A stretch of 64,000 nt of DNA, from positions 186,001 through 250,000 of the forward strand of contig JAGTXO010000044.1 of NCBI GenBank assembly GCA_019448385.1, read 5' to 3'. The stretch comes from Diacronema lutheri (taxonomy: Eukaryota > Haptophyta > Pavlovophyceae > Pavlovales > Pavlovaceae). Numbering within the stretch: the first letter of the stretch is position 1; each line of letters starts with the position of its first letter. Under the pieces are notes generated by a model. The model was not told the DNA's origin, did not search any database, and saw only the letters and a program-made list of their open reading frames with translations. Both the position numbers and the translations under genes were made by a program. Shown piece after piece: positions 41,354 through 64,000 of this stretch.

Positions 41354-41664
41354 CTGCAGCGCGCGGCGTGGCCTCGCGTGCCGTCACGAAGCCGCCTGCG
41401 CGCACTGCGGAGGCGGCGAGCGCGACGAGGGCGGGCGCGGACGAGGTGCTGAGCGGCGTCACGTACGCGCCCTCGCCCGCCGAGCTCGACGCCGCGGCGC
41501 TGACGATGCGCGCGGCATACCACACCGACCGCCTCTGAGACGATGCGCGGCGCCTGCGGAGGACTGGTCCGTTGGCGCGCAAACCGTGGGCGAAAGGGCG
41601 CGAAGCCAACGGCCGTCCGCGCACGTTCAAACGCGCGCATACGGGTGGCTTCCTCCCACCTTCG

Positions 41665-41985
41665 GCGCCGCTTTTCAAAAGGGTGTAGGGTGTAGGGTGT
41701 CGGATGCAAAACAAGCCCTCCCCACATTTGGGCCCGACGTCATTCCTTCTTCGAAGCCGTGACGTTACTCACATACGAGTACTTTTACTTAGTGTAGGAT
41801 GGATCTATTCTCTAAGTATTTACATAGTGTAGGGTGTAGGATAAGTACGGTTATGAAAGTCCCATAGGGGGAGAAGGAATGACGCTGTGACGGAAGAAGG
41901 AGTGACGTCGGGCCCAAATGTGGGGAGGGCTTGGTTTGCATCCTACACCCTACACCCTACACCCCTTTAGAAAGCGGCGGCGCCT
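41665..41985. repeat. MITE-like inverted-repeat element with TGTAGGG units
   Basis: Two arms of about 100 bp (about 41665-41768 and 41880-41985) are inverted copies: CGCCGCTTTTCAAAAGGGTG against the complement of ACCCCTTTAGAAAGCGGCG, and CCTCCCCACATTTGGGCCCG against its exact complement. Each arm holds three tandem heptamers TGTAGGG near its outer end. The 110-bp centre is AT-rich and has further AGTGTAGG motifs. There is no coding capacity. The arms differ at several bases, so it is not as young as the 26.5-kb TIR element. Confidence 0.75.
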
Positions 41986-42141
41986 CAGAGCATGGCGGCT
42001 CGACAGCATGGCGCCTCGACAGCATGGCGTCGTCCAGCGTCACGCCGCGTCGTGGTCCTGCCGCTCCTCCGTGGCGCACGGATGGCGCTCCTCCGTGACG
42101 CAGCCGAACGACGCCGCGGCGTCACGGCCCGGGCGCAGTCG

Positions 42142-44224
42142 CCATCCTGGACGCCACGGATGGCGAACCGGTCGACGAGATCCGGCACGAGGACGTCTGC
42201 GCCATCGCCACGCAGCTCGACTGCGTCTACACGGGGCTCACGGGCTCGATGTTTGGCACCAAGTGGAACGTGTGCGGGGTCATGCTCCCGAAGCGCGCCG
42301 AGCAGCGGCCGCAGCCCGGCTCGGACGCCTTCGCCTCGTACAGCGTGGCCGCCTGGGCCGACACGTTCGACTCCACGGGGCTGTACGTGCCCGACGAGCG
42401 CGAGCGCGCGGCGGCGCTCGCGGCGGTGGCCGGTCTGCGCACGGCGCGCGCGCCGGCCGGGCCGGGCGGGCGCGAGCTCGCGCGCGCGCAGGGCTACGAT
42501 CGCGCCGAGCAGGCTGCGAGCGCGGCGGCGGCGCGCGCGGCGATGGCCGAGACCGGCCAGCAGCGCGCGCTCCACGGCGCGGTCGTCGACTCGGCGCTGC
42601 GCGGCGTGGGCGACCGGCTGCACTTTTGCGACGCGCCGGGCGGCACGGGCAAGACGTTCGTCGAGCGCGCCATCATCGCCGCCGTGCGCGCGGATGGGCA
42701 CGCGGTCGTCGTGTGCGCGTCCTCGGGCGTCGCCGCCACGCTGCTGCCCGACGGCCGCACCTTCCACTCGACCTTCAAGGTGCCCGTCGGCGCCGACTCG
42801 GACGGGCAAGCCGTTCAATGGCGTGCCGCGCTCCGAGCGCGGGCGCTCCGTGGCCGCCGCGGCGAATGATCGTGGGGGACGAGGCGCCGATGCAGAAGCG
42901 GGGCCGCCTCGACTCGCTCGATCGGTGTTTGCGCGACGTGACGGGCGTCGACGAGCGCTTCGGCGGCAAGACGTTGCTGCTCGCCGGCGACTTTTGCCAG
43001 TGCTTGCCGGTGGTGCGGCGCGGCTCGCGCGCGCAGATCGTGCGCTCCTGCCTCGAGTACTCGGCATCGTGGCAGCACGATCGGCCGTACGCCTTGGTCG
43101 AGAACTCTCGCGCCTCGAACGCGGCGCGCGACACGGGCGACGCGCTCGGCGCGGGCGAGTGGGCGAAGCTGCCGCGCAGCCTCGGCGACGGCGCCTTTCC
43201 CGCGGCGGTGCCGCCTGCGGGGGCCATGCCCGGCGCATTCCCGCTCGATCCCGTGCAGCTGCCCGAGGCGTCTCGGCCTACCCGGCGGAGCTCGTAGCCA
43301 CTCGCCTCCTCTCGCTCGGCGAGGGGCTGTGCAGCGGCACGCGGCTGGTCGTGCGCGGCGTGCGCGCCGGCGGCCGGCTGCTCGAGTGCGCGCGACCCGG
43401 CGCGGCCGCCGGGCGCGACAGCACCGTGCTCATCGCGCGCATCGACCACCACTCGCCCGACGAGGGCACGTTCGCGTTTGCATGGCTGCACCGCCAGTTC
43501 CCGGTGCGGCCGGCGTAACAAGGCGCAGGGTCAAGCGCTCGGGTGCGCGGGCGTGTGGCTCGCCGAGCCGTGCTTCACGCACGGCCAGCTCTACGTGGCC
43601 GCTTCGCGCGTCGGGCACGCGTCGCGCATCCGCTTTGCGCTTGGCCCGGACCCTGTGACGCGCACCGTCGTCTTCAAAGAGGTGCTCCGCGCGGTCAGCG
43701 GTGGCGAGGCGGCGGCGGCGGCGGCGGCGTTCGCCGCGGCCGCCGTCGCCGCCGCGCGCGAATGCGCGGCGGCGGCGCGCGGTGGCGGCGGGCGCGGCGG
43801 GCGCGGCTCGGACGGCGCGCGCGGCGCCGGCGGCGGGCGGCGCGCTGGCGGCGGGCGCGACGCCGGCGCGCGGTGCTGCCCAGCACCCGCCGGCGCGACG
43901 CCCGCCGCGCCGCTCGCGGCCGACGCGCAGCCGGCGGGTGCTCGCCAACACCGCGCGCCGCGCGACTGGCCCGCGTACCTGCGCGCCCTTCTAGGGCGCG
44001 CAGGGCGGCGCCAATGCGGCCGGCAAGCAGGGGCCTCAAGCCGGCGCGCTGCCCGACGCCGCGTGGGTCGCCGCCGCGCGCGTGCCGTCGGCGCTGCCGC
44101 CGTCCGGCGTCGCGCTCGCGCCGCTGCCGCAACCTCAGCCGCCGCCGCCGCCGCCGCCTGCCGGCAAGCAGGGCAAGCGCGCAGCGGCGGCGACGGCGGT
44201 GCGCGGCCCGGCGAGCAAGCGGTA
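42142..44224 (+). pseudogene. Decayed Pif1-type helicase (Helitron-like)
   Basis: Motifs of a Pif1/Helitron-type SF1 helicase appear in order: LTGSMFGTKWNVCGVM, Walker A FCDAPGGTGKTFVE (about 42637), ASSGVAATLLPDGRTFHSTF (motif Ia region), Walker B as MIVGDEAPMQKR (about 42868), LLAGDFCQCLPVVRRGSRAQ, and near the C-terminus CFTHGQLYVAASRVGHASRI. They lie in different frames and the parts between do not join by plausible introns, so the gene is broken in several places. No HUH replication-initiator domain is seen in the window. The end of the region is an Ala/Gly/Arg/Pro-rich tail. It could be the remains of a Helitron or of a host Pif1 paralogue. Confidence 0.65.
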
Positions 44225-45405
44225 GCGGTGCCGCCGAGCCGGGGGCGGGCTCCGTGGGCGACGCGGCTTGGCCCGCCACTCGCACCACTCGCGCCGGGCG
44301 CGCACAACGCGCCGTGGTCCGCTGCGTGGCCGAGCGAAAATGCGGTCCTGGCTGCGGGGCGGATCCGACACGCCATGCGGGAGAGGCCGTACAGCGCGTG
44401 AGCTTGGGCCCGTGATTTATTACTCATGGATTTATTACTCATGCCATGGCGTCGCGCCACGATTACGCCCGTGGCCCCGGCCGCCAGCCTCGCGCCGCTA
44501 CGCCGTGTCGTCGCGGCCGGCGCACACAGCGAACTGTGTGTCCGCGGCACATGCCCGGCTGCTCGCGAGCTGCAAGCTTGCCGAACTGCTCGCGCTAAAA
44601 TGGCGCGTTGCGGGCGTGCCCGCGCACCGCGCGTATGTTCCGCGCGTTCCAGGCGCGCCGCGCCGCGCGCCGAAGCGGCGCGCGGCGCACGTGCGGCCGC
44701 GAGCCGAAGAGGGGCCGGCGCGACCGGCCGCGAGGCAGACGCAGACGCTCGGCGTGCCGGTCGACGCGTCGTCCAAATCCGCGTCGGGCGGATGCGCGCC
44801 TAGGCCGGCGCTGCGTGCAATCGGCGCGGGTCGCCGCCGCATGACGAAGCATGCTTCCATCCGGTGCTCGGCCACGCGCTCGGGCGTAACGTTCGCGCCT
44901 GTTCGGCCGAGGCGCACTCGCCGTCCCCTCGCGCCGGCAATGCGCGTGCGTGCCAGCACGCCGGCAGCGGAGGATGCCACGGCAGCGGCGAGCGGGTCCC
45001 CGCCGGTGTGCCGCTCGGCGCCCCGTCACGCGCAACGCGCGCGCCGCCCGCTGAACGCGCACAATTGCCTGGGCAAGATCGTCCCGCGCTCACGCCGCCG
45101 TCGCATCGTTCCATGCATGGCGCCCGGCTCGTCCGTACCGCTTTCGGGCAGTGCCGCGACGCCCTTTTTCAAAGGCGGGTGCCGCGCTGATTCGTCATCG
45201 GCCACCATCCATCTGGCCCTCTAAAGCCGGTTTGCGCGTGGGCGCCCGTCCGGTGCGAGAAGCGGCTCGCGTCCTCGCGCGGGGCGCCTCCGCGCCAGGC
45301 GCCCGGCGCGCGCTCGTCTTGCCGCGCCACCACGCTGATCTGCGCCCAACCCTCGCTCGCCTATTCCCCCGTCGTTTCTGCTGCGTAGCCCGCAACAGCG
45401 CGCGC
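44225..45405 (+). other. Non-coding-looking stretch before the giant gene
   Basis: These 1.2 kb have no recognisable protein content. ATTTATTACTCATG is tandemly repeated (44415-44428 and 44430-44443), an AT island in GC-rich sequence. The promoter and possibly early exons of the giant gene should lie here; the frame of its first exon is open back to 45151 without an ATG before 45406. Confidence 0.4.
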
Positions 45406-48400
45406 ATGACGCGTGCACGGCGCAGCGCCTGGAGCAACTTCCGAGTCGTCGGCCGGCAGCCTGTGGGGGGCGCGTTCATCGGCCCGATGTGGCCGGTGAG
45501 AGTGCCCGACGTGCCGCGTGGTGAGCGCCTGCACGGCTCGCCGGGTTCGGCGCGTTCCCAGTCGGCCTCTCTCCGACCCGCCGTAAACCTTGCGTGCGCA
45601 CCCCGCACACCCGGCGCTGCGCGGCGCGGCGCAGGCGTGAAAAACGAGGGCAACGCGTGCTACGTGAACGCCCTCGCGCAATCGCTCGTCGCCTTGAACG
45701 TGCTCCGTCCGATGCCCCGCTCCGCTTCGCGCCGTGCGGGAAGAGTCGAGAAGGCGCTTTTTCGGGACTTTGGCACGCTGCTCGAGGACACCGAGGCGCC
45801 GGCACAGCTGTGTCTTGTGTCCGTCGTCGACGTCATCTTGGGCCGTGGCACGCGAGGGACGCAGCAGGACGCTGCTGAGTTCTTCCAGATGCTACTCGGC
45901 CGAGTGCCCGGGCTCGCTGCTGCCTTCGAAGACGACAGACGCGTAGTGCTCGAGCCGATCGCTGTGGCCTCGAGCGAGCGCGGTGAGGGCATCGCCATCC
46001 TCGTCAGCATTGGCGGCGATGCGGCGCGCACGCTCGCACACGCTCTGGGGGGCGTCGCTGGGCCGCCGCAGGGTGGCAGCCCGGACGCGTGCCGCTCGGA
46101 CGTGCTCATGCCAGCCAGCATTGCCGTCGAGGTGCCGCGCACGACGCGCGGCAATGGCTCGCAGTGCAAGAACAAGCACGCGTTCGTGTGCGCGCCGCGG
46201 CTGCTACTCGGCGGGCGCGACTACCTCCTCGTCGCCGCCGTCGTGCACTTGGGCGAGGAGTCGACGAGCGGGCACCTTGTCGCCATCGTGCTCCGCAACG
46301 GGGCTTGGTTTCTGTGCGACGACGACAACGTGCGGCGGCGCGCACGGCCGCTTGGCGCCGCGACCGGCGGTTGATCGCAGCCGCAGCCGCCCCGTCCTCC
46401 CGCGCGGCACGCGCGCGTGGCCTGAAAGCTCGCGCCGCGCGCCTGCCGCACGCACGCGCGTTGCCCGCGCAGATGCACAACTTGTCTCAGTCCGACGCGC
46501 TGGCGTGGGCAAGTGGTGCGAGCATGCTCTTCTACAGCCGGCTCGACGCGGAACCGTTGGACCCGGCGCTGGGCTCAGCGTCACCGCCGTCGGCCGCATC
46601 GCCTGCGTGGCCGAGCTCGGCGCCCGACGCGCCGACCCTGTCGGCAGCCTGGTCGCGGGTGCGGCAGATGGCAGCGGTGCCAACAGATGCGACGATCGGC
46701 ATCGCGGAGACGGCTGCAGACACCTCTGCGGCGGCGATCGGCCCAGCTGCGTGCGAGGCCCGCCAAGTTGTCTCCGCGACGCGCGCATTGCCAATGGCGG
46801 TGAGTGCCTCGCACGCGCACGCCGTCCGCTGTCCACAGCGTGGCGCCCGGCGCTTGCGTTCGCGCCAGGTAAAGTTTGCGCGTATAGCGTGCAGCACCCT
46901 CACGCATCCCCTACGCCTCCCGCCCGCCCGACCTCTTGCCCGCCGGCCGCGCGCAGGACCAGCGCACGCCAATTGTTGGGCGCGGCCAAATCTGGGCATG
47001 CGCAAATTTTGAGCCGGCAGCGGAGGGCGGGGATGCGCAGCACAACTGGCGCAAGCGCACGTGGTGCCCGCAGCACGAGCAGCGCGAGCAGCGCGAGCAG
47101 CGCGAGCAGCGCGAGCAGCGCGAGCAGCGCGAGCAGCGCGAGCAGCGCGAGCAGCGCGTGCAGCGCGTGCAGCGCGAGCAGCGCGAGCAGCGCGAGCAGC
47201 GCGAGCAGCCCTGGCAGCCAGCGCGGCCAGGCCTCGGCGCGGGCGCTGGCGTTCGGCCCGCTGCTCTGCCGCCGAGCCATCCGCGCGCCAGCATGCGCGC
47301 GAGCAACCGCTTCGAGCCGCTCTTGTTGGCCGAGGCGGACGTGCCCGCCACCGAGCCCGCCGCCGCCCAGCCCGCCGCCCAGCCCGCCGCCGAGCCCGCC
47401 GCCAAGCCAGCCGCTGCCAAGCCCACCGCCGAGCCCGCCGCCCAGTCCACGGCCCAGCCTCCCACCGTGCCTGACGCCAAGCCAGCCGACCAGCCCGCCG
47501 TCAAATGCGCTGCCGCCAAGCGCGCTGACGACCGCATTGCTGCCGCTGAGGTAGGCGCCGTCGCCGCCACGCTTGCCGCCGCCACCGAGCCTGGCGGCGT
47601 TGCCGAGCTCGCCGCCGCCGCCGACGAGGGCTGCAGGGCGCGTGCCGACGCGCTCGCCAAGCGCGAGACCCGCCGCGCGCTCCACCGCGAGCAGCTTTTT
47701 CGCGAGGACAAGCGCGCGGCCGGCCGCCTGATCGAGCAGTGCGCGCTGGGCTCTGCGGACGATGCAGCGCGCGCGCGCGCCCTGCTCGAGCGCGTCAAGG
47801 CGCGTGGCCACGCGCTGCCTCCGCACCTGCTGCGGTCGCTGCGCGACCTCGCGTCGCCGCGGCTCGCGCTCGCCGCTGAGGCGGCGGGCGTGCTCGCCGC
47901 GTCCGAGATGGGCGAGGCGGACGCACCTGCGGAGGCGCGCGCGCTACTCATGCACGCCGAGGCCGTGGGCGCCCACCTGCCCGCGCACACAGAGCTCGCG
48001 CTGCGCCGCGCCTGCATCCCCACCGCCGAGCAGGCGGAGCTGCTCGCGACTGCGCGCGAGCTGCTCGCGCCGCGCGACCCCGAAGGCTCGGTGGCTCCGG
48101 CGGGCGCGCGTGCCGAGTGCGACGGCGCCGCGCTCGGCACTCGCGCGCGCGAGCTCCTCTCGCGACTCGACGAGGCGCACCTCGACGTGCAGCCCTGCAT
48201 TGCGCGGCAACTGCGCCGGCTCGCCGCCACCGAGCCAGACGCAAGTTCGAGCGCTGCGCTCGCCGCCACGCCCGGCACCGCCGGTCGCGCGGCCGCCGAG
48301 CCGCGGCGCGCGTGGCGCCCGCGCGGGTGGCGTCTCGCGGTAGGCGCAAAGGGTGCGCGCGCGCGCGCGCGCGCCGCGGCTGCTCCGCTCGACACGGCGC

Positions 48401-53300: not shown

Positions 53301-55635
53301 CGATGGGCAGCTGGCCATCCGGCGGCACACGCTCGGCACGGGCGCCGACGCGCCGGCGCACGCCGTCGTCTCGCTCCGCGTCGCGCACGTGAGCCACGCC
53401 ATCCGCCGCGCGGCGGACGACGGCGGCGCGCGCGCCGAGCGGATGGCGCGCGCCGCGCGCGCGTTTTGCGATGTGGCGGCCGCGCTGCGCGTCGACGCGA
53501 TCCTGGCGGAGGTGCCCGAGGACCGCCCGACGGGCACGCCCTTCCTTGGCGGGCTGCTCGAGTTTTGGAACAAACGCCACGGGAGCTCGACGGCGCCAGC
53601 CACGCTCGCGCTCGGAGACGTGCGCGAGGTGGCCAAGCGGACGGCCGACGCAGCGGCCGGCCGAGCGGACGAGGTCCCTGCGGCTGGCCGTCCGCAGGTC
53701 GCGGCGCGCGCGTGCGCTGGCGCGATTGGCGGCGGCGCGGGCGCGGCGGGCGCCTCGGACGCTGCGCCCCGTGCACTGGCGGGCGCGTCGGGTGCGCGCA
53801 CGGACGGCGGCCCTGCCGACGCACCGCGCCAGCTGGAGAGCCGCTACGGCGAGGCGAGCAAGCTCGACCTACCCCAAGATTCCACTACGGGCTGCGTCCT
53901 CGACGCTCGCGAGGCCCAGGACCGCGCGCGCGTGCCTGCTGCGCCCGACGGCACAGCGCTGCGCCGCGTGCTCGACGCCGTCGGCGCGGGCGCGCCCGCG
54001 CAGCGCAGCCCGCGCTGGCACGACGAGCGATGGGAGGAGGTCACGGGCAGCAAGGTTGGCGACGTCGTGAACGACAACGCCGGCGTCGCGCACGAGACGC
54101 TCACCGACGAGTACGTGCACCGGCGGCGGCGCGAGGTGCGGACCAAGGCGACGACCGCGGGCATCCTCGGCGAGGCCGTCGCGCTGCGCAAGCTGGCGGC
54201 CGCGTACGGCATCACCGTCGTGTGCAACCTGCCGATGGTGCGTGCGGACCCGCACGACAAGAGCGCGCCGTTCGCCTTCTCGCCGGACGGGCTCGCCATC
54301 CTCCCCGAAGACAACGAGCAGGTCCTCGTCGAGGTGAAGACGCTCACCAAGGCGGACGCCAAGGCGCACGAGGACGGGCCGCCGCAGCCGCACCGCGATC
54401 AGCTGCAGCTCGGCATGCACGTCCTCGGCGTGCGCAAAGCGCTCTACGTGCAGTACCTCAGGCACGAGGACCGGATCGTCGTGCACGTCGTGACGCGCGG
54501 CGCCGGCTGGCTTGCATTCGCGCAGCCGAGGGTGCAGGCCTTCTGGGCGCGCGTCGTCGAGCGGCGCGCGCGGCTCGAGCGCGCGCGCGCCGACCACCCG
54601 GCTGCGAGCCGGCGGCACCGGCGGCAGCAGACGCCGGCCGGGCCGCCGCTCGTGCTCGCGCTGGACGGGCGCATCCCCGCCGCGCGCGCCGCCGCGCTGC
54701 ACGCCGTCGCGCACGGCACCGCGAGCGCGGCGGCGGTGGCGGCGACGGCGGCGACGGGCGACGCGACGGCGTTGCAAGACGCGATCGCGGCGCTGCGCGC
54801 GCCCGTCGGCAATGCGGCGATCGACAGCGCAGCGCGTGCGGAGCGCGCGGCCGTCGAGCGGGCGATCGCGTACCTCGGGCAGCCGGCAGGCGACGCCGCC
54901 GCCCGCGGCACGGCCGAGGCGGCCGAGGAGGAGAGGACGGTCGACGCCGACATCTGCGCGTTGCTGCACCAGCTCGGCGCGAGCGTGGCGCACGTGCACG
55001 TCGAGGACGCGGATTGCGTCACGCGTGAGCACTGGGGCGGGGCGGTGCTCGCTGCAGCGGGCGACCCGTCGAGCGCCCCCGCCATTTCGAGCGTCATCGT
55101 CGCGCACATCGTGCGGCTCGCCGGCTTTGGCGTCGAGCTCCCGCAGTCGATTCGCGTCGCCCCCAGCACGGCCGACTGGCACGAGGGCTGGCTCGACGTG
55201 CAGTGCGTGCTGCTGCGCACGCGCCGGCGCGGGCGGCGCGACGACGACTTTGTGGCCGTCGTCAGGCGCGGTGGGCGCTGGTTTGCGTGCGAGCCCGGCC
55301 GCGCGCGGCGGCTGCAGTGGCGGTCGGTCCTGCGCCGCGCGCGCGGCGGCGTCGACGGGACCGGCGAGGAGGCGTTCGCGGTCGTCTACGTGCGGCGCGG
55401 CGACGCGGCCGGCGACGCGGCTGGCGACGCGCAGGCCGAACGGGCGCGCGGCGGGCGCGCGCGCAGCGCACGCGCGGCGGCACGCGCAAGCGCAAGCGCG
55501 GCGCCTCCGCCGGGCTCGAGGCGGCCGCGCCCGCCGGCGCGCCGGCTGCCGCGCCCGCCGGCGCGCCGGCGGGCGCTGCTCACCGCCCGCCCGCCATGCG
55601 CGCGACGGTCGCCGCGCGCACCACGCGCTCTGTGA
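45406..55635 (+). CDS. Giant protein: USP deubiquitinase + Ulp1-like protease + YqaJ/lambda-type exonuclease
   Basis: Exons 45406-46329, 46473-46868 and 46957-55635 give 3332 aa. Introns are GTGCGG...CGCGCAG and GTAAAG...CGCGCAG, both phase 0. Residues 70-330: a compact USP domain with Cys box VKNEGNACYVNALAQSL (Cys85), GTQQDAAEFFQMLL, His box TSGHLVAIVLRNGAWFLCDD (His290), closing with ASMLFYSRLD only after splicing. An EQR-repeat region and Pro/Ala linkers follow. About 1300-1430: a C48-like triad, GHFTALRLV (His1336), VLVDTL (Asp1359) and AQRGATCGLAVVGAL (Cys1405). About 2780-3000: a YqaJ fold, SPRWHDERWEEVTGSK, FSPDGLA (Asp2884), LVEVKTLTK (Glu2899, Lys2901) and HRDQLQLGMHVLG. The end resembles a USP tail without its His (DDDFVAVVRRGGRWFACEPG). 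Residues 1900-2750 are unrecognised. The start codon is uncertain; the protein may continue into the Fanzor part. Confidence 0.72.
47077..47208 (+). repeat. 9-bp minisatellite encoding Glu-Gln-Arg repeats
   Basis: GAGCAGCGC is repeated about 14.7 times with two GTG variants, in frame inside the giant gene (EQREQREQR...VQRVQR...). The 9-bp period keeps the frame whatever the copy number. Confidence 0.92.
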
Positions 55636-58600
55636 CCGACGCGCGGCACTCGGCGCCTGCCGCCACGGTTGCACCTGTCTTCGACTGGCGCGCCGGCCGC
55701 CCGCCCCCCGCCGCTCGAGCCCGCCACCCGCGGCCGCGTGGGCGCGCGCCACCGGGCAAGGCCTGGGACAGCGTCTCGGGTGCGTGGGCGGACAAGCCGA
55801 CTGGTGCTGCCGTCGCCGCCGCGCCGCCGCCGCTGCCGCCCGCCGCCGCGCCGCCGCCCACCGCCGCGCCGCCGCCCGCCGCCGCGCCGCCGCCCGCCGT
55901 CGCGCCGCCGCCCGCCGCCGCGCCGCCGCCGCCGCCGCCACCGGCGGCGCTCGGCCGCCGGCAGCACGTCGGCGCGGGCGGCAGCGCGGCGGGCCGGCGG
56001 CTCGCGGCCATCGCACGGCGGCAGCGCGGCGTGCGCGCGCCGCCGCCCGCCGCGCGCTTCCTCGCCACGCTGCCGCCACCGCCACGCGACGGCCTCGCGC
56101 GCACGAGCAAGCAGGCGCGCGCGAGGCGCAACGCGGACGGACGGCCGGCGCACGCGCGCGCGGCCAACGCGCGCGCCTTCTACCGCGGCGTGGAGCTCGG
56201 CGTGCACGCGACGCGCGCCATCGTCGACGCGCGCCACGCCGACCTGCCGCAGGCCGTCTTCGTGGCGGAGGCGCGGGCGATCGTCGCGCGCTCCGCCGGC
56301 GGCGGCGCGCTGCTCGCGCCGGACGACGTGCGCGACCTGTGCGACGCGCAGACGGACGCCGATCGCGCTGCGATCTGGGCGTCGGTGGGCGCGCACGAGG
56401 CGACGCGCATCTTCGCGCTCGTCACGCGCAACGCGAGCTTGGCGGGCGCGGCGCTGCTCGTGCTGCACACGCCGGCGGGCGCGCCGGCGCGCGCGCTCGG
56501 GCTCGTGGCGACGCGCTCGCGCGCGCCGTCGACGGGCGCGCCGCGCGACGCGCACAGGGCGCTGGTGCAGCGGTTGGACGTGCTGATGGACGCGATCGCC
56601 GCGGCGCGAGGCGCGTCGCCGCTCGAGCTCGGGCTCGCGCTCGCGCCCGAGCCGCAGAGCGCGTGCAACGCGCGTGCGGCCGCGCTGCTCTGCCTGCAGG
56701 CCGTCGCGGACGCGAGCGGCCGTCCCGCCGCTGAGGACGCGCTGGCCGCGCTCGACGACGCGCGCGGCATCGACCGGCACTGCCACGCCGTCCGGCAGCA
56801 GATCGAGGCGAAGCTCGCGTGGCGGCGCGCCGACGGCGCCGTCGGCGTTGACGGCGCCGACGGCGCGCCCGCGCTCGCGCCTGCCGCCGCACCGCCGGCG
56901 TGCGCGCCGGCGCACGCTGCCGGCGAGGCGGCAGTCGACCAGGCGATCGTCACGCGGGTGCGCGACGCGCTGCGCGCGTGGGCGACGACTGGCACCGCGC
57001 CCAGCGCGGCGGTGCTCGACGACGCCTGCGCCGCGTACACGGCGCGCGCACGCGCGCGCAAGGACGCGCGCACGGCGCTGGGCCCGACGCGCGCGGCCGA
57101 GCTGCTCGCCGCGGCCGCGCGCGGCGGAGCCGACGGGGCGGATGCCGCGCGCGCGCTGCTCGGCGGCACGCCGCGCCTGCTCGTCGTGCTCCTCTGCGTG
57201 CCCGTCGCCGCGCCGTCCGGCGAGCCGCCGCGCCCGGTCGGGCTGCTCGTCGCCGACCGGCCGACGGACGACTCGCGCCCGGCCGCGCTCGTGCGCTACG
57301 ACTTTGCGCCGCTCGACGCGGACGTGGCCGTCGCGGTCGGCGCGCATGCCGTCGCGCTGGCCAGTGCGATCTGGCCGCTGCTCGCGGCCGAGGGGGAGCC
57401 GCGGCCATCGCCCGTCGTGCGCTCGCAGCCGCGCGGCGGCGACGATGGCGCGCGTGCGCTCGCAACGTTCGCGTGCCTCGACGCGCTGATGACCGCCAGC
57501 GTCGGCGCGCACGGCCTCGCGGGCGGCGCGGGCATGCTGCCCGCGCTGGTCGCGCGAGGCGCCGCGGCCGCCCAGCGCGAGCGGCAGCTGCGCGCGGCCG
57601 CCGAGAGGCTGGGCGGCACGGTCGCTGGGTGGCCGGACACGGGCGCGAGCGCGGCGGGCGCGAGCGTCGACGAGGAGGCGCGCACGTACGAGGTCGAGGC
57701 GGTCGTCGACGAGCGCCGCAAGGCGGGCAAGAAGGTGACGTTCCAGTTCCGGATCAGGTGGCGGGGCTACGACGAGAGCGCCGACACGTGGGAGCCTGAG
57801 GCCAACGTGAGCAGCGACCTCGTCGCCCAGTTCCGCAAGACGCGCGACGAGCAGAAGCGGCGCGCGGGCGTATCGGGCAGCGGCAGCGGCGGCGCGGGCG
57901 CGGCGTCGGCATTGGCGTCGGCGCCGCTTCGCGCGCACGGCGTGTCGGGCGCCGCGGGCAAGCGCGCCGCGGCGGGTGCTGCCGCGAGCGCGCGCGACGC
58001 CGCGGGCGCGCGCGCGCCGAGCGTTCCCCGCGCGCGCGGCGTCGAGCGCGCGCGCGTGGACGAGCCCGCTGCGCCGAGCGCGCGCGCCGCCGGCGGCGCG
58101 ACGGCGCGCACGCGCGTCAGCGTGCTCCCGGGCTTCGTGGTCAAGCGCTCGACGCTCAACGCGGGGCCGCAGGCGGTGACGGCGCAGCCCGGTGCGCGGA
58201 AGGAGCTGCGGCGCATCGCGGCGGCCGTGCACAGGCTCACGACACAGGCGTACCGCGTCATCAACAAGGTGGTGCGCGACGAGGCTGCGGTGGCGAGCGC
58301 GCAGGCCGTCGGCGCGGCGTCGGGCGGCCCGTCGACCAGCGTGCACACGTCGACCACGATGGACAAGGGAACCGTCCGTGCGATCTTCTCGGCCATCGGC
58401 TGGCACAAGGACGAGAGCACGTACGGTGCAGCGCCCCGAGGCAAGCCCGCCGAGCAAGCCGCCGCGCAGACCAAGGCGGCGACGGCGCGCGCCGTCGGCG
58501 AGATGGCCGAGGGCGTCCAGCCCGTCTGCGCGGTGGGCCTCACGGAGATCCTCGAGGCGGAGGCGACGCAGGTGTCCACCGCGTGCCTGATGCATCCATC

Positions 58601-60847
58601 GCGCGTCGTGAACGGGCTGCTCCGCGACGTCGTCCGCGCGGCAGTCGAGCGCGACGAGGCGCTCGTCGCGCTGCCCGAGATGCAGCGAAACGCGCGCGTG
58701 CGCGAGCTGTGCGAGCGGCTGCTGCGCGGCGACGTGGAGGGCGCGCGCGTCGGCTGCCCCGCCGCGCTCGACCGCCACCTGCCCGACATGGTCCTCCACA
58801 AGATCGACTACAAGTGCACGCCCACGAAAAGGTGGAACTACGACCGGCACACGACGCGCTACTTCCTCGTGCAGATCCGCACCCTGCAGCACGTGGCCGA
58901 GGGGCAGGCGCTGCTCTGCCGGCTCGCGCACATCCACACGCAGCTGACCGGACGGCCGCCGCGGTACAATGTGGCGCCGCTGCGCACGCACAATGTGCGC
59001 GCGAGGCGTGGCTGCCGCTGCCGCCGCCGAGCGCCCAAGCGCGCGCGCCGCCGCCGTGCGCGCCGCCCCGCGGCCAGGTTGGTCACGCGCCCGCGCGCTC
59101 GCGCGCCGCGCGCTGCGCGCAGGTGCCGCGCAACGTGCGCCTCGCCGCGAGCGCCATCTGGGTGACGCTTTCGGATGACGAGCGCAAGGAGCTGCGCGCG
59201 CGGCTCAAGGCGCTGGACCTGCGCGACCACGATGGCGAGCCGATCAAGTGGACAGGCACAAACGGCAACACCCCGCCGATGTCGGACGTGCGCGTCAGGT
59301 ACGCGGTCTTTGCGACGCGCTTCGACATCTCCAACCGCGTCTTCGACTACGCCGGGCGCGAGCGGCCGCCGGCCGATCTGCCGTGGCACGCGCGGCGCTC
59401 GTGGGTTGGCCTCGCGCCGCTGCCGCGCGTGCCGCTCCCGGGCCGGCAGCCCGTCAAGTCGGTGGTGACAGATGGCGTCGCCGTGCACGCCGTCGGGACC
59501 GTCCTCGTGCCGAAGGCGCAGGCGCCGGCCGGCGGCTCGGGCGTCCTGCACCGCTGGCGCCGGCCGGACGGGCGCATCGCCGTCGCGCTCGGCTCCGAGC
59601 TGCGGCGGGCGATCGACGTCGAGGCGGCGGTCGTCGTCGCGGCCGACCCGAACATGGGCAACATCACCACCTACTCTGCGCACGTCGGGCGGGCGGCCGT
59701 CTGGCGGCAGTTCACGCAGCGCGCGCGCGCGCGCGCCGCGGGCTTTGCGCGCGAGACGGCCAAGACCAACGCGGCGCGGCGGCGCGTGCGCAAGGACGGG
59801 CGCGGCGAGGAGTTCAGCGTGGAGGCGGACGAGGCGCGGCTTGGCGAGGCGCACAGCGCCAAGGTGCTCGACGAGGGCGAGTTCCACGCCTTCCACCGCG
59901 AGAGCGCGCGGGTGCGCGAGCGCGCCGCCGAGCACGTGTACGACGCGCCGGCGCGCCGGAAGGAGCGCTGGCGGCGCGACAGCGGCGGGCGGTCCAACGC
60001 GGCGCGCGTCGCCGAGGCGCTCATCGCGGCGCACTGTGTCGACGGCGTGACGCGCGACCGGCTGCTCGTGTGCGTGGGCAAGTGGCTGCGCGACCACAAG
60101 GGCGCGCAGCCCAAGGGCGCGCCGCCCGCCTTCCAGGTGGGGCTGCTGCGCGAGCTGCGGCGGCGCGGCGTCGCGGCCGTCTTCGTGCCCGAGCCGTACA
60201 CGTCGATGCACTGCTCGATGCCGCGGCTCGCCAAGGGCGGCAGGCTGCAGCGCTGCGGCGCGGAGCTCGCGCAGAACCCGCGCCTGCCCGTGGCAAAGGG
60301 CGGCACGCGCACGGTGCACGCGCTCGTCATCTGCCCGGCGTGCAACGGCGGCAAGAAGCCCGTGCACCGCGACTACAACGCCGCGCGCAACATCTTCTAC
60401 GACGTGCACGACATGGCGGCGCACGCGGCCGGGCGCGACACCACGTCGACGCCTGAGCGCTTTGCCCTCGTGCTCGCCTGGTGGGCGCGCGGCGAGGTGT
60501 GGGAGCGTGAGGAGCGCATGGTGCACGGCGAGGGCGACGACTGCGACGACGAGTGCGACGGCGACGACGAGGGCGACGACGAGGGCGACGACGACGACGA
60601 CGACGATGGCAGCGGCGACGGCGGCGGCGGCGAGGGCGACGGCGACGGCGACGGCGACGGAGGCGGCGGCGGCGACGACGACGATGACGGCGGGGGAGGC
60701 GGCGGCGGCGACGGCGGTGGCGACGACGGCGGCGGGCGCGGCGGCGGTGGCGGCGGCGGCTCTCGCGCCCGCACCCCCGCCCGCGGAGCTGCCAGCGCCA
60801 GTGCCGGCGGCGGCAGCGCGCGCGGGCCGAAGCGCGGCCGGCGTTGA
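55596..60847 (+). CDS. Fanzor/TnpB-type RNA-guided nuclease with chromodomain
   Basis: Two exons (55596-58994 and 59123-60847; intron GTGCGC...GCGCAG, 128 bp, phase 0) give 1707 aa. Residues about 695-750 are a chromodomain: TYEVEAVVDERRKAGKKVTF and FRIRWRGYDESADTWEPEA. From about 840 on the protein follows Fanzor/TnpB: helical and wedge-like regions (MVLHKIDYKCTPTKRWNYD), then the RuvC core. RuvC-I is VVVAADPNMGNIT (Asp1308); the Glu is in AVFVPEPYTSMHCSM (Glu1490); RuvC-III is VHRDYNAARNIFYDV (Asp1550). Cys residues in MHC, RCG and CPAC form the finger between them. The tail is a long Asp/Gly-rich stretch ending GPKRGRR, a likely nuclear signal. TnpB and Fanzor cut DNA at sites chosen by an RNA made from the element's own end. 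The residues 1-690 (Pro/Ala then helical) are unrecognised. It may be the C-terminal part of the preceding giant protein. Confidence 0.8.
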
Positions 60848-61294
60848 CGCACGGCCGAGCCGCGCAGCGGTCGACGCTTTGCGGGCTCTGCCCAGGTCGC
60901 GCGCGGCTGGCGACGCGTGCCGCGCGCGGCACGACCGTGCACGCCGCCACCCGTGGCCGAGCGCGCCGCACCAGCCGGCCCGCTCCAACCGCCGTGCGGA
61001 TCACGGACGCTCGCTACGGCTCGTCGGCGCGCGTCACCTGCGCCGGCGGCCACGGCGCCGTCTGCTCCGGCCTCGTCGCGAGCAGCCCGACCGCTGCTCG
61101 CCGCCCGCACGCCGCCGCAGCAACGCTGCGCGTCGTGCTCCCCCGCTCGCCAAACGCGAAGAGCTCCCTCACAAGGACGTCCTTCCGAACGGCCCGCGCT
61201 GCACTCGGGGCGCGATCGTGCCCCTGATCGGATTTGGCTTGACCATCTATACTGGTTGACGGCCGCTCACAAAAAGCGCGGTCGCCGTGATACG
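60848..61294. other. 3' flank of the Fanzor gene; candidate guide-RNA region
   Basis: These 447 bp lack a gene. A perfect palindrome GTGCCGCGCGCGGCAC lies at 60917-60932, and a hairpin with stem CGAGCAG / CTGCTCG and an 8-nt loop at 61079-61100. Fanzor and TnpB elements usually encode their guide RNA over or just after the 3' end of the nuclease gene, so this is where one would look; no guide scaffold can be recognised from sequence alone. The right end of the stretch (GATCGGATTTGGCTTGACCA onward) is less GC-rich and may be outside the element. Confidence 0.35.
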
Positions 61295-64000
61295 TCAATC
61301 GCTCCATCCTTGTCCAGACGTGCGCGTGCCCACGCGTTGCGCATGGCGCAGCAAGACGCCTGCAAACTGGCCGCGCGGCGACGAGCGCGGGACCAAGTCG
61401 TGGGTGAGCGCGCCCCCCAGGCTGACGTCCTCTACCGGCTCGGCGTTGGCATACGCCCACATCGGCGGCGCGGCGCGCGTGCGCCGCGTGCTCAGTCGAC
61501 GGAGGATGAGCACGTCCGCCGCGTCGCTCGGCTGCGAGATGACAAATTTGTCGAGGTGCAGCAGGACCTGCAGCTTGACGAGCGCGAGGCGCTGGCAGCG
61601 CGGCGACGCCTCGTCGAGCGAGCACTCCGCCTCCCACGCGCCCGGGAAGTAGGAGCGCATCGAGAAGACGTCGCGCCGCCTGCGCCAGTGGCGGCGCAGT
61701 GACGCGTAACACTCCTCATCGTCACACGCGAGGAAGTAGCGCAAGCTGAGGCCGCGCGCGATCGTCGGGCCCGTCACGTTGTCGAGCATCGCAAAGACGT
61801 GGTCCGTCGGCGTGAGCACGTGCGCGCTGCGCGCCGCGGCGCTCACGCTTGCGCGGCGATGGCGGGCGTGGGAGTGCATGCCGACGTGCACGCCCACACT
61901 GCCGCGCAGCCGCGCGATCTTGACGATGTGGTAACTGATCGCTGAAACGTCGGCGACGCGCGGGTGCAGCCACTCGAGCGCGCACCCCAGCTCGCGCGCC
62001 GAGAGCCCCACGCCCTCCGCCTTGGCCATCCTGCGCGTGCGCACGTAGAGCGACAAGCCCGAGTGCACGTGCTGCGCCGAGATGAGCAGCGTGCGTCGCG
62101 CGGAGCCGCCCGTTGCGCCGTCAGCGTAGTCGACCCAACGGCTGCTCTCACGTCCGGCGGGCGGGTGGTCGAGGACGAGCATCGAGCTGTTGCGGACGAA
62201 GAGCTCGTCAAAGCTGCCGCCGCACTCTGCCGTCCGCTCCCAGACGACGGCAAACGAGAAGCCGAGCTTGGCCGCAAGCGCCCACGCGGCCGCGAGCGCG
62301 AGCTGCCGCTGCGAGAGGTCGCCGAGCACGTGGGCGAGGAACATTGGTGCGCCCTTGCGCGCGAGCAGCAGCGCCTGCTGCCACTCGCGCAGCTGCCGGC
62401 TCTCGCTCCAGCAGCCTCCGTTCACTGAGTCATCCACGTCCGACTCGAAGCCGGGCACAACGGGCGGGTCGATGGCGGCACGCCACACAGATGATCCCGC
62501 GCCCGCACTGCCCGCCCCGCCGCTTGGCTCGATGGTGCGCTCATCGGCCATCCGCTGCCCGACGAGGCCCCAGTCGCACGTCGCGTCGAAGCCGCCCGAC
62601 GCGTGCGATGCGGCGAGCAGCGCGACCTCGCACTCGGCGCGCAGCCGGTTGGCGTGCAGCCGCAGGTTCACCTCGCGCTCGTGGGAGGTGGTGTCCGCGC
62701 GGCGCGCGTCGGCGCTGACGCGCGCGGCGGCGACGCGCAGCTGCTTCGGCAGCAGGCGCATCTTGCGCGCGCCGCTCACTGAGTCGAACTTGCCCTGTGT
62801 CGCCTCGCCTGTCCTCCACCAGCGCGTCCACCGCCCGCCTGCGCTGATTGCGCACGGCGCGCCCTTCGCGCCGCACGAGAGCCAGCTTGTCGAGATGCCG
62901 TGCGCGCCGATGCGCTGCGCGAGGTACCGGTCGGCGTGCGGCGCCGTCACGATCCCCTCGGGCATGCCGCGCACGATGTGCCATAGCGAAGTTGGCAGCA
63001 GCACGCCAATCGCGCCGCTCGGCCCCGCGCCGCCGCAGTGCACGCGCGCGGCCTCGTCGACGGAGGCGATCGTGCCGAGCGCGGAGACGGTCGGGACCGT
63101 GGGAATCTCGCACGACGAGACGACGTGCGCCGAGTGCGAGAGGCCGTGCCCGCGCAGCCGCGCGAGCGCCGAGAAGAAGCCCGAAGTGAAACGGCTGTTG
63201 AGCCCAGCGCACAGCACGTGATTCGCGCGTGCGAGACGGATGCCCGCATTGAGCGCGACCGCGTCGAGCGGCGGCAGCTCGCCGCTGTGCGGCCGCAGTG
63301 CGCGCGCGTGCAGCGCGGGCGGAATGCGCACGACACGCACACGCAGCGCGTGCGCACGCGGCCCGTCAATCCACGGCTCGCCATCCGTGTGTGCGCTCGG
63401 CCCGTCCTCGCGCGGCCAGTGCATCACGAGCAGCTCGGCGCGCAGGCCGTGCGTGAAGAGCCCGTCAGCGAGGCCGCGCGCGAGTGAGCGGATCGCGTCC
63501 CACGCCTCCGCCTCGCTCGCGGGCTCTCCGCGCCACGAGGCGGTGAGGCCGGTCAGCCACGACGCGCTCACGACGACCGTGAGCGCCAGCGCACTTGCCT
63601 CGCTCAGCGCGGCGAGGTGGGCGTCAAAGGCGCTGGCGCCGCCGGGCGCGAGCGCAGGCGTCGATGGCGCCGGCACGCGCGCCGTGCCGCGCTGCGCGGC
63701 CGGCTTGCGCACGCGCGCTGTGTCATCAATCGCGTCGAGCCGCTTGCGCAGCTGCGTGAGCCACGCGATGGGGCAGATCCACAGTCCGACTGTCTGCAGC
63801 TGCTCCGACTTTGCGCCGCCATTCTTGTCCGAGAGACAATGCGCGACCATTGACATGCGCAGCTGCTCCTGCTCGTTAATCCCCGAGCAGTTGCGCACGA
63901 CGAGCCGGTCGCTCACGACGAGCAGCCGCACGCGCAACAGCGCGTCGGCCACGTCCGCACGCGCGGGCGCGCCGGCGCGCGCCGTCGTGTCGGCGAGGGG
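61295..64000 (-). CDS. Two-domain glycosyltransferase-like protein (5' end beyond the window)
   Basis: The frame is open to the right edge, giving at least 901 residues of the C-terminal part. The N-terminal half has GT2-like features: DAVALNAGIRLARANHVLCA and FTSGFFSALARLRG. The C-terminal half resembles GDP-fucosyltransferase-type (GT-B) enzymes: FLAHVLGDLSQRQLALAAAW then AAKLGFSFAVVWE with GGSFDELF, SVGVHVGMHSHARHRRAS in the place of the HxR(M)-type motif, LRYFLACDDEECYASLRRHW, and FVISQPSDAADVLIL near the end. Donor and acceptor cannot be told. The hydrophobic N-terminus expected of a Golgi enzyme would be outside the window. It is tail-to-tail with the Fanzor gene. Confidence 0.6.
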   Translation of the reverse strand, partial: PLADTTARAGAPARADVADALLRVRLLVVSDRLVVRNCSGINEQEQLRMSMVAHCLSDKNGGAKSEQLQTVGLWICPIAWLTQLRKRLDAIDDTARVRKPAAQRGTARVPAPSTPALAPGGASAFDAHLAALSEASALALTVVVSASWLTGLTASWRGEPASEAEAWDAIRSLARGLADGLFTHGLRAELLVMHWPREDGPSAHTDGEPWIDGPRAHALRVRVVRIPPALHARALRPHSGELPPLDAVALNAGIRLARANHVLCAGLNSRFTSGFFSALARLRGHGLSHSAHVVSSCEIPTVPTVSALGTIASVDEAARVHCGGAGPSGAIGVLLPTSLWHIVRGMPEGIVTAPHADRYLAQRIGAHGISTSWLSCGAKGAPCAISAGGRWTRWWRTGEATQGKFDSVSGARKMRLLPKQLRVAAARVSADARRADTTSHEREVNLRLHANRLRAECEVALLAASHASGGFDATCDWGLVGQRMADERTIEPSGGAGSAGAGSSVWRAAIDPPVVPGFESDVDDSVNGGCWSESRQLREWQQALLLARKGAPMFLAHVLGDLSQRQLALAAAWALAAKLGFSFAVVWERTAECGGSFDELFVRNSSMLVLDHPPAGRESSRWVDYADGATGGSARRTLLISAQHVHSGLSLYVRTRRMAKAEGVGLSARELGCALEWLHPRVADVSAISYHIVKIARLRGSVGVHVGMHSHARHRRASVSAAARSAHVLTPTDHVFAMLDNVTGPTIARGLSLRYFLACDDEECYASLRRHWRRRRDVFSMRSYFPGAWEAECSLDEASPRCQRLALVKLQVLLHLDKFVISQPSDAADVLILRRLSTRRTRAAPPMWAYANAEPVEDVSLGGALTHDLVPRSSPRGQFAGVLLRHAQRVGTRTSGQGWSD

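Follow-up and report, generated by a model that had tools for sequence, protein, structure and literature searches.

Chromovirus (Ty3/Gypsy) integrases carry a chromodomain, and these chromodomain integrases are named in the accessible portion of PMC6338049. The Fanzor1 nucleases SpuFz1, GtFz1 and PpFz1, as covered by the accessible portions of PMC10432273 and PMC11423790, reside in mobile elements and have an Asp-Glu-Asp (D-E-D) set with a shifted Glu, a TDG motif and a TNB domain, and Fanzor1 is also carried by the Chlamydomonas Helitron2 elements CRe-1, 2 and 3 (PMC3627910, accessible portion). Diacronema lutheri, a haptophyte, has in its genome a chromodomain in frame with a Fanzor1-like nuclease, an arrangement that is highly repeated. 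It was analyzed in a 64,000-nucleotide stretch (the window; C70:186001-250000) within an assembly of 43,492,796 bases and 103 contigs; the available part of PMC8379373 gives a genome size of 43.503 Mb and gene models made with BRAKER2 using RNA-seq. The element in the window shares with SpuFz1, GtFz1 and PpFz1 all the features listed above but differs in its in-frame chromodomain, in having DPN for DPG, and in placing the nuclease at the tail of a giant polyprotein. With chromovirus integrases it shares the joining of a mobile-element enzyme to a chromodomain, whereas the partner is a Fanzor-type nuclease and neither reverse transcriptase nor integrase was found in the frames scanned. No description of a chromodomain-Fanzor fusion was found in the accessible text of the literature searched (Fanzor, TnpB, Helitron, haptophyte, domain fusion); the string "chromo" is absent from the text of PMC11423790 and PMC10711439, and "fusion" from PMC10432273.

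Chromodomain and nuclease in one reading frame

The chromodomain and the first nuclease exon share a single stop-free frame of 1378 amino acids (55029-59165), with the following arrangement in the window.

57687 to 57839, + strand: chromodomain with Tyr (57687), Trp (57759) and Tyr (57768), residues 887-937 of the frame 55029-59165 (Pfam, PDB chain matches)
57840 to 58100, + strand: low-complexity linker of 87 residues between chromodomain and nuclease (sequence)
58101 to 58994, + strand: exon 1 of the Fanzor1-like nuclease, N-terminal half, in the chromodomain frame (frame and splice-pair analysis)
58995 to 59122, + strand: predicted GT-AG intron of 128 nt, with 2 nt added at 59038 in two subfamily copies (splice-pair analysis, annotated junction)
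59123 to 60847, + strand: exon 2 of the Fanzor1-like nuclease, with TDG (59468-59476), D (59645), E (60191), D (60371), TNB, acidic tail and stop (Pfam, alignment)

An initial annotation, made from the sequence of the window, had placed a chromodomain upstream in the nuclease frame and proposed a hidden Markov model search for it. Pfam returned PF00385 in the frame 55029-59165 (E value, 1.8e-12; 47.4 bits against a cut-off of 25.1), covering nearly the whole domain (model positions 1-52 of 53), with no stop between it and nuclease exon 1. Chromodomain chains in PDB were matched with a best E value of 5.4e-10, CDY, CDYL and HP1 chains among them, and alignment with 1kna brought the Tyr, Trp and Tyr of the element into line with the residues of the aromatic cage of HP1. 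The element's domain thus resembles those of HP1 and CDY/CDYL in sequence and in these three positions, but sits in a transposon protein. A single-sequence structure model of the chromodomain alone (predicted local distance difference test [pLDDT], 67; predicted template modeling score, 0.34) placed a helix where the first strand of the chromodomain fold, a three-stranded sheet with a helix at the C-terminus, is expected and was too poor to use.

The exon 1 frame can be linked to the RuvC frame by more than one GT-AG or GC-AG splice pair. The intron was placed at 58995-59122, where the initial annotation had also seen it, because an annotated D. lutheri protein, KFE25_006464, is spliced at exactly that junction (APLRTHN|VPRNVRL). 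This host protein, encoded on contig C69, has a SAM domain, and its N-terminus derives from a captured fragment of the element's nuclease gene. Across the genome, 101 chromodomain-RuvC pairs are spaced 1892-1921 nt apart, 80 of them at 1913 nt and 16 at 1915 nt; both copies read from the latter group carry two extra bases at 59038, within the intron.

Near-exclusive DPG in RuvC1 and a Glu six residues before the zinc finger (Ealt) are described as marks of Fanzors, and Fanzor1 is further marked by TDG in its WED domain (PMC10711439). The RuvC triad called complete in the initial annotation lies at 59645-59647 (Asp), 60191-60193 (Glu) and 60371-60373 (Asp), and all three residues align with those of a second, DPG-bearing Fanzor1-like family of D. 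lutheri at 30% identity. The Glu is the shifted one (PEPYTSMHC, aligned with DESYTSQDC of the second family); the displaced glutamate that the annotation ascribed to Fanzors agrees with the published Ealt. TDG is present in VVTDGVAV, aligned with IQTDGKAA. Pfam matched the RuvC/TNB model PF07282 in the frame 57800-60847 just above threshold (E value, 4e-06; 27.3 bits against a cut-off of 26.3). Judged by these sequence features (D-E-D, shifted Glu, TDG and TNB), the nuclease is Fanzor1-like, with DPN as the exception, and it is probably RNA-guided.

The giant open reading frame and its copies

The chromodomain and nuclease are the C-terminal end of a giant open reading frame (ORF) and do not form a stand-alone Fanzor. 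In what follows, C69, C11, C13 and C36 denote contigs or the copies of the element on them, and L numbers denote individual genome stretches that were read. The frame is uninterrupted over 5388 amino acids in C69 and 6136 amino acids, the longest seen, in C11, while in the window copy the frame is interrupted at some point within 55029-55635. The gene start at 55596 given by the initial annotation does not hold: the ATG is not conserved, C69 having Arg there, and the gene extends far upstream. That annotation was borne out for the chromodomain, the Fanzor1-like nuclease and the intron, and had overlooked DPN and the giant ORF of a high-copy mobile element. The remaining parts of the window copy are as follows.

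39696 to 61252, + strand: whole element copy, shortened and frame-broken relative to C69 and C11, beginning TATATACGG and ending GACCATCTATAC (BLASTN against other copies, junction reads)
42163 to 44377, + strand: sequence homologous to the Pif1-encoding part of C69 and C11, present here in fragments (BLASTN, 91-96%; Pif1 Pfam matches in L030 and L031)
44426 to 46810, + strand: region homologous (87%) to the part of C11 encoding a ubiquitin carboxyl-terminal hydrolase (UCH) domain (UCH Pfam match, 4e-09, at L031:5317-6810)
53995 to 54567, + strand: RecE/YqaJ-like exonuclease domain of the giant ORF (PHROG_434, E value 1e-17; Pfam YqaJ, 0.011, below cut-off)
60848 to 61252, + strand: 3′ noncoding end of the element, a candidate source of a guide-RNA scaffold (precise 3′ end)

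The element spans 21.6 kb in the window, 26.5 kb in C69 and at least 30.6 kb in C11, in which the 5′ end was not read. The 5388-amino-acid frame of C69 holds a weak YqaJ match together with the chromodomain, and C11 and C69 are 99.4% identical over that region. In C11 the Pif1 helicase (Pfam, 1.8e−24, L031) and the UCH domain are encoded further upstream, on the strand of the giant ORF. Inverted repeats were also noted near the 5′ end of the element (window 41663-42158), a stretch that matches C69 in both orientations.

Genome-wide searches scored 131 of 397 RuvC candidates and 150 of 260 chromodomain candidates, so that there are at least 131 RuvC copies and at least 150 chromodomain matches. 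The RuvC copies are 98-100% identical and none of the 131 listed has an internal stop, which indicates that the nuclease frame is not a product of chance. Of the 150 listed chromodomain matches, 102 are in frames that reach 4,000 amino acids or more. Given this, the near-identity of the copies and the stop-free RuvC parts, the amplified source was open throughout. A RuvC match lies downstream on the same strand of 101 of the 150, and 17 further chromodomain matches have a TNB match at 2468-2473 nt among 30 TNB matches picked, so that a nuclease follows at near-fixed distance in 118 of 150. Of the remaining 32, four have deviating scores and are apparently not part of the element, while the other 28 may belong to truncated copies or have partners beyond the matches listed. 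Viewed from the nuclease, a listed chromodomain lies upstream in 101 of 131 cases and none is listed in 30. One copy, L033 (C49:214042-216215), is an internally deleted derivative without chromodomain and exon 1, in which the frame preceding the chromodomain continues straight into the RuvC part.

What the fusion may do

The copies represent a young, high-copy element in which the chromodomain would hold an RNA-guided cutter on marked chromatin, a reading to which we give an even chance; such chromatin-directed cutting is, at about one in two, the most likely reason for the fusion. By analogy with Fanzor and TnpB biology, the nuclease would load RNA made from the 3′ end of the element, with flanking DNA as guide, and would cut matching sites that lack the element. 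The chromodomain would bind methylated histone H3 and so retain the complex at chromatin bearing the mark, and the element would be copied or kept when the cut is repaired. If the fusion works in this way, it would be a natural union of a chromatin reader with a Fanzor, focusing RNA-guided cutting on marked chromatin, and would bear on the benefit that mobile elements draw from their Fanzors. The many near-identical copies in a cultured alga also allow the direct question of whether insertions follow histone marks.

Several observations weigh against chromatin-directed cutting. RuvC-I reads AADPNMGN, with DPN rather than the DPG of the second family (FDPGKNK). The initial annotation had proposed comparison with Fanzor and TnpB profiles. 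PF07282 was matched, one bit over its cut-off; a single-sequence PDB search with the nuclease frame matched no Fanzor or TnpB chain. In the same type of search, L032 of the second family alone matched SpuFz1 at just 0.55, and a three-sequence profile led to Cas12f1 at 2e-4, with TnpBs at about 0.3. A single-sequence structure model of the RuvC half (pLDDT, 38) was too poor to use for a fold search. Comparison of synonymous and nonsynonymous changes gave no sign of purifying selection between copies: in exon 1 of L056, for example, 20 changes are nonsynonymous against 7 synonymous ones, and the chromodomain has 3 nonsynonymous changes in L056 and 6 in C36, with no synonymous change in either. 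The copies are too young and mosaic for selection on the chromodomain to be decided. The 3′ region folds no better than shuffled sequences (z, −1.13). Finally, the fusion was not found outside D. lutheri in protein and viral-contig searches of limited reach, which makes this absence weak evidence; one protein search, with 7987 candidates scored, gave two proteins that were D. lutheri-like, another no relative among 7993, a further one a weak TnpB (E value, 4.8) among 15, and two viral-contig scans no confirmed relative.

Somewhat unlikely, in our estimate, is that the chromodomain works for a different activity of the element, such as the placing of insertions as in chromovirus integrases, and that the polyprotein is later cut so that the Fanzor-like part acts without it. 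The giant frame of up to 6136 amino acids, the ubiquitin-type protease encoded by the element and the 87-residue low-complexity linker parting the two domains would all suit such processing. Yet the chromodomain adjoins the nuclease in frame, at near-equal distance in the 101 pairs (1892-1921 nt), and no integrase or polyprotein cleavage site was found in the element frames scanned. The neutral look of the changes between copies, DPN in place of DPG, the broken frame of the window copy and the loss of chromodomain and exon 1 from L033 would instead fit a passive relic, with an acquired chromodomain lacking function or a nuclease no longer active. This is unlikely, as neither the cage residues nor the D-E-D set has been lost, the copies are 98-100% identical with stops in 0 of the 131 listed RuvC parts and 102 of 150 chromodomains in frames of at least 4,000 amino acids, and copies this young tell little about selection. 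That the chromodomain and nuclease are separate genes brought into a common frame by accident in GC-rich DNA is highly improbable: long spurious frames do occur here, up to 1787 amino acids antisense, but exon 1 residues in the chromodomain frame belong to an annotated protein spliced to VPRN, and the natural frames of 5388 and 6136 amino acids pass through the chromodomain into exon 1.

A bolder form of chromatin-directed cutting, in which the element would be a self-contained homing machine, appears improbable to us. The histone-held, RNA-guided nuclease would cut a site free of the element, the RecE-like exonuclease of the element would resect the break, and its Pif1 helicase would drive break-induced copying over the full length of the element. 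Where this copying stopped early, 5′-truncated copies with intact 3′ ends would result. A retroelement was also considered, as 5′ truncation would fit, but was set aside because the frames scanned gave no Pfam match to a reverse transcriptase.

Related families, element ends and insertion sites

At least two further Fanzor1-like families are present in the D. lutheri genome (L032, L035 and L014:5100-6365 on the − strand; L034), with the motifs DESYTS and RDFNAARNI or RDFSGARNI. No Pfam chromodomain was found in the upstream frame of the second family (L036, L032); for the third (L034), the sequence read scarcely extends beyond the RuvC part.

The 3′ end GACCATCTATAC was present in 26 of the 29 stretches examined, 24 of the 26 being distinct copies; the exceptions were a variant in L089 and two stretches that run into contig ends. 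Copy L026 ends differently at its 3′ side. A C directly precedes the 5′ end in 11 of 13 cases and may belong to the element; a G directly follows the 3′ end in 15 of 24. Twelve copies were read at both ends (the window copy, C69, the 5′-truncated C13, which begins at window position 57224, and nine others), of which 11 had no junction duplication of at least 5 bp and one had a duplication of 13 bp. For the copy on C9 near 2907620 (L071, L091), the 13-bp duplication is GCGAGGACTATAT, and the target is similar to the 5′ end of the element itself, CTATATACGG. The left flanks of L063, L064 and L078 share AAGCGTCGTTA beside the 5′ end of the element, and their right flanks differ.

Classical Helitrons end in CTRR at the 3′ side, and Helitrons make no target-site duplication. 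The element ends in CTATAC, and although it encodes a Pif1-type helicase, a Helitron mark (Pfam, 1.8e−24, L031), no HUH Rep domain was found by Pfam in the element frames scanned; it was not filed as a Helitron because of the missing Rep match and the differing 3′ end. The sole Helitron_like_N match in the genome lies outside the element, at C63:35738-36019 (L029). As far as the accessible portion of PMC3627910 describes them, CRe-1, 2 and 3 share with the element a Fanzor1 gene, a precise 3′ end, 5′-truncated copies, a 5′ terminal T and mostly no target duplication (for the element, in 11 of the 12 copies read at both ends), a duplication occurring where the 5′ end of the copy is odd. In contrast to them, the element has no Rep found, is much larger, carries Pif1, UCH and RecE-like domains and the chromodomain, and lacks TTTT before its 5′ end. 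No Rfam match was found at 55000-62500.

Thirteen contig starts were compared, over 150 bases for 12 contigs including C9 and over 30 bases for C26. C1, C6, C12, C83, C5 and C10 begin no more than 3 bases from the 3′ end of the element, and C26 and C29 about 10 bases inside it. These starts at or near the 3′ end (L038, L039, L041, L043, L046, L047; L027, L028) are probably assembly breaks at repeat borders. Telomere-directed insertion was accordingly set aside, telomere-like repeats being present on other contig ends (C9, C36). The G-rich repeats at contig ends differ among contigs, being of the TAGGGG type on C9, the GGGTAA type on C36 and the GGGTGA type on C5 and C11 (L051-L055).

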